64,000 nucleotides of DNA from assembly GCA_021646415.1 (NCBI GenBank), contig SOEU01000004.1, forward strand, positions 1 through 64,000, written 5' to 3'. The notes below the pieces were generated by a model. It saw only the letters and a program-made list of their open reading frames with translations, ran no database searches and was not told the origin of the DNA. Below are positions 9,806-43,258 of this stretch, one piece after another. Every line of letters begins with the position of its first letter. Within the stretch, counting starts at the first letter, position 1. This DNA is from Candidatus Brocadia sp. GTDB lineage: Bacteria > Planctomycetota > Brocadiia > Brocadiales > Brocadiaceae. The translations under genes were made by a program, and so were the position numbers.

Positions 9806-9834
9806 TTGACAGAAAATTTTTTTTATGCTTTAGT
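9806..9834 (+). promoter_or_regulatory. Promoter for the riboswitch transcript
   Basis: TTGACA (9806-9811), a 17-base spacer and TTTAGT (9829-9834, four of six to consensus). A transcript from about 9841 would begin some 35 bases before the riboswitch aptamer. Confidence 0.55.
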
Positions 9835-9874
9835 TATTCAAATTTGAAATTGCTCTATAAAATTGAATTTGTTT

Positions 9875-10012
9875 CCGATAAAGGTAAACCCTGAGCGATT
9901 AGGGGGCACAAAGTAAAGGGTCTTTAGACGAACCGTTGAAGTTTTAGTATTGGATAAGACAGCCTTACTGCCGAAGATGTTGTTGATATCTTTGCAGTAA
10001 GGCTTTTTTTAT
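9875..10012 (+). promoter_or_regulatory. Cyclic di-GMP-I (GEMM-I) riboswitch with terminator expression platform
   Basis: The aptamer shows AAAGGTAAACC, a stem CCCTGA/TTAGGG capped by a GCGA tetraloop, then GGCACAAAG, AGGGTCTT and, after the second leg, AAGACAGCC. These are the conserved joining segments and GNRA loop of c-di-GMP-I aptamers. The 3' strand of the closing stem (GCCTTA, from 9962) is also the 5' strand of a terminator hairpin, so the two are mutually exclusive. Ligand binding should therefore prevent termination and switch expression on; this last step is inference. The next gene is the triple P460-like lipoprotein. A second copy is at 43091-43258. Confidence 0.85.
9962..10010 (+). 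terminator. Intrinsic terminator of the c-di-GMP riboswitch
   Basis: GCCTTACTGC (9962-9971) pairs perfectly with GCAGTAAGGC (9994-10003) and is followed by seven T. Confidence 0.85.
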
Positions 10013-10447
10013 TTTACAGGTCTTGTAAAGAATACGTATTGCTCAGAATAAAGCCATCTACTTCTTTATTTTTTGTTGGTTTTGTCGCCTTGTTGGTTTG
10101 TTATCTTTTGGGATTCCATTTCCATCACTTTGACAATTTCTTTATAGTTTGGATTTACCAAGCAGCAACTATTTCAGGTACAGTTTATTCCCGATCACAC
10201 GATACCGGGGAGGTGTTGAGATCGTCTTGCTTAACACAAATCGCATTAAACCTTTTCTGATATGGAGACACACGTGAATTCAATTAGCAAAATTCTTTTG
10301 TTAATTTTTAATACCAGTAACTGCTCTTTGTTCCTGTTAAGGAATGCATCAGGCACGGAGAGACAAAGCTTTGTCCGTTCAACCCTAAAACCTGCATAAA
10401 TAAAATAAAAATCCTATAAACTACGTGTACGAAAAAAGGAGAGGAAG
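10013..10447 (+). other. Long leader between riboswitch and P460-like gene
   Basis: About 435 bases without a convincing gene. A TTG-started 73-codon frame (10039-10260) has one hydrophobic segment but no ribosome site and a non-protein-like tail, so I do not call it. At about 10357-10377 lies a palindromic hairpin around GACAAAGCTTTGTC. A GAGAGG site precedes the next gene. Confidence 0.45.
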
Positions 10448-12109
10448 ATGAAAAAGATTCATTTGTTTCTTGTATTAACAATATGCCTTTTCTATTTAGG
10501 ATGTGAAAGAATTAAAAAAACATTTGAACCGAAAGAGGAAGTACCCGAAGTTACTGTGAAAGAAGAACCAGAAGTTGTCAAAAGAGAAACATCAGAATAC
10601 GCCAAAGAAGAAGCACCTGAAGTTGAGAAAAAGGAACCGGAAGAATTAGAAATGTCTGCATTATTAAAATTATCAGAGGAAGATATTGCAAAAGAACTCT
10701 GGCAGAAAATACAAAAGGAAAACTATCAGCATAATTGGAAACTGTGGCCGGACAAGAAGACTTTCTATGAGGCAAAAGAACCACATGGGCCTTTACTCAC
10801 TACATACGTGAATGACATTTCATACGATACTATTATAAATAAAAAGGGGAAGATGCCGTTTGATGCAATAATAATTACTGAAAATTACACGTTTGATAAT
10901 AGTCTCATTTCCATAACAGCGATGCGAAAAATAAAAGGTTTTAATCCTGTAAACAATGATTGGTTCTGGGTTGAGTTTGAACCAAGTGGCAAAGTCATGA
11001 CGATGAGAGCAGACGACAAGATTATACAATTAGCTGGCAAAATTGCCACCTGTATCGAATGTCATGGGAAACAAGCCCATAATGACTATATCTTTACACG
11101 TATACTGAGAGATATAGAGCAGGAAACACTTGAGGCAAAAAAACGGGAAGAAGAAGAAGTAAATGCCATAAGAATTGCCAAGGAACTCTGGGACAAAATG
11201 AAGGAAGAAGATTATCAGGCAAACTGGCAGATGTGGCCGGACAAACAGGCTTTTTATGAAGCAAAGCAACCGCATGGAGCTTTGCTCACAACATACGTAA
11301 ATGGCAGAGCTCATGATACGATTCTCAATAAAAAAGAAATAATGCCTCCTGGTGCAATTATTATTGCAGAAAACTATACCTTAGGCAAAAATCTCGCCTC
11401 TACAATCGTGATGCAAAAAATAACAGGTTTTGACCCTCAAACTCATGATTGGTTTTGGGTTCAATTTGACCCGGACGGGAATATTATGACAGAAAAAAAA
11501 TATGGAGAGATCATACTCCAGGCGGGAAAAGTCGCACGGTGTATTGAATGCCATAGGGAGAAGGCCGACAATGACTTTATTTTCACAAGCCCTTTGAAGA
11601 AAACAGAGAAAGTCGAAGGAGTAACACCCGAAGTTAAAAAAACAGAAGAAATATCAGCAGAAAAAATGGCAAATATTCTCTGGAATAAACTGCAAACCGA
11701 AAATTACAGGAAAACCTGGCAGATGTGGCCAGGCAAGCCGGTTTTTTATGAAGGAAAAGAACCGCATGGATATTTTCTCACCACCTTTGTAAATGACATT
11801 GCCCATGAAATAATTAAATATAAAAAAGGAGAAATGCCCTCAGGAGCAATAATTATTAAAGAGAATTATAGGCAGGATAAAAACATTGAATCAATAACTG
11901 TAATGCAGAAGATAAAAGACTTTAATCCCGATTCCAAAGATTGGTTCTGGATTAAGTTTGAACCAGGTGGCAATGTAATGACGGTACAAAAGGAAGGCGA
12001 AACTATAAAGTTGGTTGGTAAAATTGCCAGCTGCATTGAATGTCATGGCAAACAGACCAGTAATGATTATATTATGACAAGTCCTTTGAAGTTAGAACAT
12101 ACGTACTAA
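10448..12109 (+). CDS. Lipoprotein with three tandem cytochrome P460-like haem domains
   Basis: A 553-residue secreted lipoprotein: the signal peptide ends in a lipobox (FYLGC, C19), followed by a Glu/Lys/Pro-rich linker to about residue 70. Three homologous domains follow (about 78-220, 240-385, 405-550). Each has a WxxWPxK.xFYE.K.PHG..LTT(Y/F)VN block, a DWFW motif and a c-type haem motif CIECH (C202, C365, C529). The arrangement fits the cytochrome P460 family, whose single-domain members oxidise hydroxylamine or NO-related species, or detoxify them. A catalytic lysine cross-link cannot be judged by eye. A protein anchored in a membrane with three haems could carry electrons or handle reactive nitrogen; this is inference. 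Expression is probably under the upstream c-di-GMP riboswitch. Start ATG follows GGAGAGGAAG. Confidence 0.85.
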   Translation: MKKIHLFLVLTICLFYLGCERIKKTFEPKEEVPEVTVKEEPEVVKRETSEYAKEEAPEVEKKEPEELEMSALLKLSEEDIAKELWQKIQKENYQHNWKLWPDKKTFYEAKEPHGPLLTTYVNDISYDTIINKKGKMPFDAIIITENYTFDNSLISITAMRKIKGFNPVNNDWFWVEFEPSGKVMTMRADDKIIQLAGKIATCIECHGKQAHNDYIFTRILRDIEQETLEAKKREEEEVNAIRIAKELWDKMKEEDYQANWQMWPDKQAFYEAKQPHGALLTTYVNGRAHDTILNKKEIMPPGAIIIAENYTLGKNLASTIVMQKITGFDPQTHDWFWVQFDPDGNIMTEKKYGEIILQAGKVARCIECHREKADNDFIFTSPLKKTEKVEGVTPEVKKTEEISAEKMANILWNKLQTENYRKTWQMWPGKPVFYEGKEPHGYFLTTFVNDIAHEIIKYKKGEMPSGAIIIKENYRQDKNIESITVMQKIKDFNPDSKDWFWIKFEPGGNVMTVQKEGETIKLVGKIASCIECHGKQTSNDYIMTSPLKLEHTY

Positions 12110-42124: not shown

Positions 42125-42974
42125 CTATGTATAGTTGTCTCGTTTAATTATGTTACAGAGTCCTTGAACAGTCCTCTCTTCTGTAAACGCACCCTTACAA
42201 AACTCTGGATCCCTTGTCGTAGGAGTTAAATCATATGCCCCCCTTCCTATTTCAAAGATGCGAGGACGTATCTTATTTAAATCGGCATCATCTTCATTTA
42301 AGATGTCCAGTGCCTGTAACGCAGCAACAAAGACGGAAGTTTGATAGGTGGATCTAAACGGAGGAACATCTCGTTGCCATTTACCAGGAAATTCCAGTCC
42401 ATAACTCGATGCGGCGATCAGGTTCCTTGTAAAAGGTAATTCTGTGTATGCCAGGGGCGGGCGTCAAGGTCTGTGGTAAAAAAGATGGTGTTAGGAAATT
42501 CATCACGAAGCGCTTGCAATATCAGCGTATCCTGACGATACCACTCGTATGGAACTAGACGTTCTTCCCCATTAATCTCTGCTTTAAACGCCCCAATATG
42601 TGTTTCATTCCTGGGTTGATATCCGGCAACATGAAGCGCTGAAAGCACGGCATATCGAGTTCTCAGTCGCTCCTCTGCATCTTTTGTATAATGACCATCT
42701 GTAATCATAACGGGCATGATCAATACCTTCTTAATATCTTTTTGAGGTATGAATATCTTTGAACAGGGGTCATTGATATTACGAATTGTAAAATCTTGAT
42801 GTGCCACCTTGGCATCTTTTCTATAACTTTCAACGGCTTGAAATGGATCCTGCCACAGACGGGCAAGCACCTTTTCCTCATCTACCTGCCGTTCCATCCA
42901 CCTGCGATAATTGCAGCAACAAGCAGGGTAATAGAAAATGGAAACGATGCTTGTTGCTCTTGTTGTTCGGTCAT
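42125..42974 (-). pseudogene. Frameshifted and truncated gene for a membrane protein of unknown family, downstream of a c-di-GMP riboswitch
   Basis: Three pieces in different frames join into one protein. From ATG 42974: MTEQQEQQASFPFSITLLVAA (one membrane helix). Then, frame-shifted, 42897-42418: VLARLWQDPFQAVESYRKDA, MPVMITDGHYTKDAEERLRT and FFTTDLDARPW. Then, shifted again near 42430, 42430-42125: ELPFTRNLIAASSYGLEF, STYQTSVFVAALQALD and RIFEIGRGAYDLTP. The junctions read naturally (DLDAR...LPFTRNL). I recall similar N-termini in proteins of about 1000 residues, so the rest appears deleted. The riboswitch at 43091-43258 is directly upstream on the same strand. Confidence 0.7.
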
Positions 42975-43090: not shown

Positions 43091-43258
43091 AAAATAAAAA
43101 AGCCGTACTGCAATATATTCATAGCAAACATCTTTGGCAGTAAGGCTGTCTTTTTCAAAGCCGTTTGAACGGTTTAAGCGGTTTAAACTGTTTAAACCGC
43201 TTACAAGACCCTGTCCTTTGCGTCCCCTGATCGCTCAGGGTTTGCCCTTATCGTGATG
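43091..43258 (-). promoter_or_regulatory. Second cyclic di-GMP-I (GEMM-I) riboswitch with terminator
   Basis: On the minus strand: ATCACGATAAGGGCAAACC, the stem CCCTGA/TCAGGG with a GCGA tetraloop, GGACGCAAAG and CAGGGTCTT. The second leg is expanded by hairpins of GTTTAAAC type, including an exact GCGGTTTAAAC/GTTTAAACCGC pair. AAGACAGCCTTACTGCC follows, and the terminator is GCCTTACTGC (43146-43137) with GCAGTACGGC (43111-43102, one mismatch), then a T-rich tract. The aptamer closing strand and the terminator share GCCTTACTGC, as in the first copy. The GGACGCAAAG segment is a better consensus match than in the copy at 9875. Confidence 0.9.

Follow-up and report, generated by a model that had tools for sequence, protein, structure and literature searches.

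A GEMM-I riboswitch likely controls the gene of a P460-family haem protein in an anammox bacterium

Organization of the locus and identity of the aptamer

The window analyzed here is the whole 64,000-nt stretch of DNA from Candidatus Brocadia sp. (contig SOEU01000004.1). On its forward strand, a GEMM-I (c-di-GMP-I) riboswitch aptamer at 9874-9976 overlaps an expression platform with an intrinsic terminator at 9962-10010, and farther downstream a gene at 10448-12109 encodes a predicted lipoprotein with three domains of the P460/c'-beta superfamily (PF16694). The host genome (G000; 3.81 Mb, 42 contigs, 99.96% complete) encodes the alpha subunit of hydrazine synthase (HZS; PF18582, E 5e-30) and therefore belongs to an anammox bacterium.

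An earlier note, made from the sequence alone, had described an aptamer with a GCGA tetraloop at this site and proposed an Rfam covariance-model search as a check. We ran this search using cmscan, and the matches to both RF03167 (60.9 bits against a gathering cut-off of 59, with E 6.7e-12 for the whole window) and RF01051 (57.6 bits, cut-off 35) exceed their thresholds. The tetraloop closes P2 at 9895-9898 and the P1 core is formed by 9876-9877 and 9972-9973, so that the aptamer can be regarded as real. A chance structure is ruled out by the Rfam score together with the folding of the whole leader (z = -3.8 versus shuffled sequences). Matches to miRNA families in the same scan were discarded as chance matches to the terminator hairpin.

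Reading the ligand-contact residues from the alignment, we found G20 at 9883, A47 at 9910, and C92 at 9971 (the Vc2 numbering is our own mapping). The common C22-G45 pair is replaced by U22-A45 (9885/9908), a compensatory change that is also present in another riboswitch copy of this genome (C18:62384). Compared with the Vc2 riboswitch of Vibrio cholerae (RF01051), the window aptamer has the same fold, P2 GNRA loop, joining segments, and G20/A47/C92 residues; it differs in its target gene and in being one of approximately 45 copies in its genome, nearly all of which have one common terminator platform. Judged by these sequence features, it is a genuine GEMM-I aptamer with a predicted c-di-GMP-type binding site.

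Ligand class and native signal

Since RF03167 scores higher than RF01051, an alternative is that the aptamer belongs to the altered class represented by RF03167 (c-di-GMP-I-GGC), or that it senses cGAMP instead of c-di-GMP. The name GGC presumably encodes positions 20, 47, and 92. The RF03167 consensus has G at position 47, whereas the window aptamer, although it passes the model score, has A, as do nearly all of its paralogs in G000; it was therefore not filed as GGC, and canonical c-di-GMP is the predicted ligand. A preference for cGAMP (GEMM-Ib) is associated with A at position 20, but the window aptamer has G, which is also present in 43 of the 44 other riboswitches of the genome. The sole copy with a cGAMP-like A20 is found at C9:74491-74600 on the reverse strand of G000, and the reading frames downstream of it resemble ferredoxin and rubredoxin.

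The enzymes that may supply the signal were also examined. The cGAMP-making Hypr enzymes have Ser347 at a site where the readable GGDEF domains of G000 have Asp. In GacA, this Ser lies 26 residues ahead of Asp373 of the GGDEF motif (PMC6456294). Among the 12 GGDEF domains of G000, the equivalent site could be read in 10, all of which have Asp and none the Hypr-type Ser, which makes c-di-GMP a more likely native signal than cGAMP. A weak GEMM-I match below the cut-off (C1:386000-386089, 31.4 bits) was observed 96 nt ahead of a 1605-aa reading frame with a GGDEF domain, possibly forming a feedback loop.

The earlier note had invoked Geobacter as a precedent for c-di-GMP riboswitches upstream of cytochrome genes. 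This precedent holds for the position of the aptamers, in that GEMM-I aptamers precede haem-protein genes at pilM (PMC9262584) and at pgcA, OmcAHG, and OmcST (PMC6456294). It does not hold in general for the ligand, as many of the cytochrome-linked GEMM-I riboswitches in Geobacter sense cGAMP (PMC6456294). These related copies speak for a cGAMP sensor in the window as well. For the most part, however, they are cGAMP sensors located before multihaem electron-transfer cytochromes, whereas the window aptamer has G20 and precedes a P460/c'-beta-type protein. Given the residues at positions 20 and 47 and the GGDEF domains, we consider an altered-ligand class or a cGAMP sensor improbable.

Expression platform and gap

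The earlier note had also placed a promoter ahead of the riboswitch. A perfect TTGACA hexamer is present at 9806-9811 as a possible -35 element; however, our promoter scan reported no promoter here and no acceptable -10 element at 16-18 nt from it, so that this claim could not be confirmed. In contrast, the claim that the terminator shares a strand with the closing stem of the aptamer was borne out by folding. The terminator hairpin (9962-10003; -24.2 kcal/mol alone) is followed by a run of seven U residues (10004-10010), and both P3 and P1 contribute their 3' strands to its 5' arm (9962-9982). Constrained folds of the ligand-free leader gave -42.7 kcal/mol with the terminator versus -22.1 kcal/mol with the aptamer. 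As the two folds are mutually exclusive, ligand binding should block termination, that is, the switch should be a transcriptional ON switch. The same logic was reported for the pilM cGAMP riboswitch of Geobacter, where the ligand prevents termination and turns expression on (PMC9262584).

The mechanism may thus be outlined as follows. As long as no ligand is bound, the 3' halves of P3 and P1 would pair with 9987-10003 to form the intrinsic terminator, and transcription would end at about 10010. When c-di-GMP is bound, the aptamer would retain these strands and no terminator would form. RNA polymerase would then read through approximately 435 nt of gene debris into 10448-12109, the only intact gene downstream, and such read-through would be a main source of the P460 mRNA.

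The earlier note had considered the gap of 435 bases the weak point of the proposal. This untranslated leader is indeed unusually long (few riboswitches in G000 lie farther from their start codon than the 472 nt measured here), but it is largely explained by gene debris, and it contains neither an intact gene nor a convincing terminator (its strongest hairpin has no proper U-tract). Three remnants were recognized in the forward direction. Positions 10057-10169 probably represent a decayed gene for a small membrane protein of the DUF1328 family: local alignments with the two DUF1328 loci of G000 scored 53 and 57, values reached by 0 and 2 of 500 shuffles, respectively, and this was the top alignment among 2092 sampled window positions. 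Because the stretch is T-rich, the assignment is suggestive only. The stretch at 10187-10361 is a truncated 5' fragment of a gene resembling phosphatidylserine decarboxylase (PF02666); it aligns at 80-87% with the leader and the beginning of the coding region (approximately 90 nt), and intact copies of this gene are present in G000 (C10), G003 (C229), and G005. Finally, 10354-10418 is what remains of a palindromic repeat that is abundant across the family. Two contigs of G000 (C21 and C30) start with a common sequence that ends inside this palindromic repeat, possibly an insertion element that targets it, and the repeat is also matched, at about the same point, by the start of a third contig (C18).

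These remnants suggest an alternative in which a genuine riboswitch has been orphaned by the decay of the gene that it once controlled (the DUF1328 or the truncated decarboxylase-like gene), while the P460 gene uses its own promoter in the gap. The long distance from the aptamer and a promoter-like site at 10119-10148 are in line with this, and the leader fragment of another gene is a potential source of a promoter, which is a point against read-through. On the other hand, the promoter-like site is weak and within chance expectation in the promoter scan. In addition, no such riboswitch precedes those intact decarboxylase-like genes that were examined, and this gene is thus not evidently the original target. 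Comparison with congeners, described below, also bears on this question.

The P460-family protein

The gene at 10448-12109, which has a ribosome-binding site (AGGAGAGGAAG) just upstream, encodes a protein of 553 aa and is the only PF16694 gene in G000. The three fused P460-like domains described in the earlier note were recovered by Pfam (92.9 bits over three stretches, E 2.6e-26), each with one of three CXXCH motifs. The protein is a predicted lipoprotein: the Cys residue that terminates the signal sequence is kept in all multi-domain homologs, although the lipobox (YLGC) is not ideal. With the P460/c'-beta superfamily, whose solved members include NeP460 (2JE3), McCP-beta (6HIH), and TtCP-beta (7EAD), the protein has in common the PF16694 domain, the C-terminal CXXCH, and the Lys position in domain 3; it differs in having three tandem domains in one predicted lipoprotein. 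Profile E-values to solved P460s are about 1e-3, and phmmer found no solved structure for the whole protein. Several of the top PDB profile matches were discounted, as they are beta-propeller or WD-type proteins matched on a short PDG-containing stretch. An AlphaFold model of domain 3 based on three sequences was poor (pLDDT 47.7), and its top Foldseek matches, c'-beta cytochromes, were weak (E 4.8e-3) and not relied on; the likeness to TtCP-beta and McCP-beta thus consists of weak profile matches and fold matches from a poor model. A scan of genome contigs gave one distant match (Thiodiazotropha, 33%).

A family motif is present as IIITENY, IIIAENY, and IIIKENY in domains 1, 2, and 3, respectively. 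In the profile alignment, the K of IIIKENY is aligned to Phe61 of TtCP-beta, which has been equated with the cross-linking Lys70 of NeP460 (Table 2 of PMC11928373). Therefore, the cross-link position is occupied by Thr in domain 1, Ala in domain 2, and Lys only in domain 3; among aligned multi-domain relatives, the C-terminal domain always has Lys, and several N-terminal domains have lost it. At the position of the distal carboxylate (Glu96 of NeP460, Asp102 of McP460; Gly82 in TtCP-beta), sequence alignment places Thr or Ile, and in none of the domains is a carboxylate aligned there. It has been reported that NsP460, which lacks this carboxylate, is inactive on hydroxylamine despite its cross-link (PMC11928373).

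If the protein were a true hydroxylamine-oxidizing cytochrome P460, as its PF16694 match and the Lys of domain 3 might suggest, c-di-GMP would directly control an enzyme of nitrogen oxidation. The substitutions at both positions and the modest similarity to solved P460s make this improbable. Because two of the three domains lack Lys and no carboxylate is aligned, we assign the protein to the P460/c'-beta superfamily without labeling it a hydroxylamine oxidase; the label P460 in the earlier note is right at the Pfam level, but nitrogen oxidation chemistry does not follow from it. A P460 haem cross-linked to lysine would be possible in domain 3 only. The most likely role of the protein is that of a haem protein in the cell envelope, either binding small ligands such as NO or transferring electrons.

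Conservation of the riboswitch-gene pair in congeners

In three congeners (G001, G003, and G005), a multi-domain P460 gene likewise lies 0.45-1.44 kb downstream of a GEMM-I riboswitch of the same orientation, with different intervening genes. In G001, the riboswitch is followed by a DUF1328 gene and a two-domain P460 gene (448 nt from the aptamer to the P460 start). In G005 and G003, a CbiX-like gene is located before the two-domain P460 gene (1374 and 1442 nt, respectively), and in G003 the terminator is directly followed by the remaining 3' part of a DUF1328 gene (alignment score 76 versus a shuffle maximum of 55). Apart from the riboswitch and the P460 gene, the window and the G001 locus have no common neighboring gene. 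A co-directional riboswitch this close would be expected by chance in approximately 0.2-1% of cases per genome; as the four genomes are related, these values were not multiplied. No GEMM-I match was detected just upstream of the single-domain homolog in G004 or of homologs in other genera, and the latter result counts against a control link. In G000, the CbiX-like gene stands apart under its own riboswitch (C38:9808-9912, reverse strand). The CbiX-like protein has a hydrophobic stretch at its N terminus, and its gene is linked to a riboswitch in three species, by itself in G000 and ahead of P460 in G003 and G005.

The simplest history would be an ancestral riboswitch-DUF1328-P460 unit, the middle of which was replaced or lost by lineage while its ends were kept together. 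That the pair persists in three congeners despite different DNA in between is the main support for a control link and argues against the orphaned riboswitch, which we regard as rather unlikely. Furthermore, no conserved promoter of the P460 gene itself was evident among the variable upstream sequences of the congeners. Thus, comparative evidence indicates that control of the P460 gene by the riboswitch, as the earlier note had proposed, is likely, and that the biofilm signal c-di-GMP probably switches on the production of this haem protein.

The GEMM-I regulon and its implications

A total of 45 GEMM-I matches (E ≤ 0.001) were identified in G000, 43 of which are above the RF01051 cut-off of 35, and 42 of the 45 have a terminator platform like that at 9962-10010. 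The congeners G001-G010 have 19-56 copies per genome; for G. sulfurreducens, 17 GEMM-I riboswitches have been reported (PMC6456294). Inspection of the downstream reading frames in G000 revealed that many targets look like secreted or surface proteins. A CXXCH motif was found in the first sizeable downstream gene at only two copies, and the P460 gene is therefore an unusual GEMM-I target. While GEMM-I is a known riboswitch class, a target of the P460 family is new.

A second aptamer in the window (43133-43256, reverse strand; 53.3 bits) is located 235 nt upstream of a 159-aa reading frame (42418-42897). Its P3 loop, like many others (for example, C5:85226-85337 and C1:377848-377963), contains an array of the self-complementary motif GTTTAAACNGTTTAAAC, and the majority of the sites of this motif in G000 are inside riboswitches. 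A 24-nt palindrome was considered as a mobile repeat of P3 loops; its sites in G000 are only within riboswitches, and it was rejected as a general repeat there.

Anammox bacteria, which form granules and biofilms, process NO and hydroxylamine. Our search of open-access literature turned up no report of c-di-GMP riboswitches in these bacteria, and the action of c-di-GMP in them is little documented. As a tentative proposal, c-di-GMP may work in this anammox genus through an unusually large riboswitch regulon that includes an envelope P460/c'-beta protein, and the aggregation signal might then directly set the capacity of the cell surface to bind or detoxify NO or hydroxylamine. The regulon of approximately 45 copies offers a ready list of candidate biofilm genes, and the riboswitch before the P460-family gene would be a specific and testable link between aggregation signaling and nitrogen-oxide chemistry.
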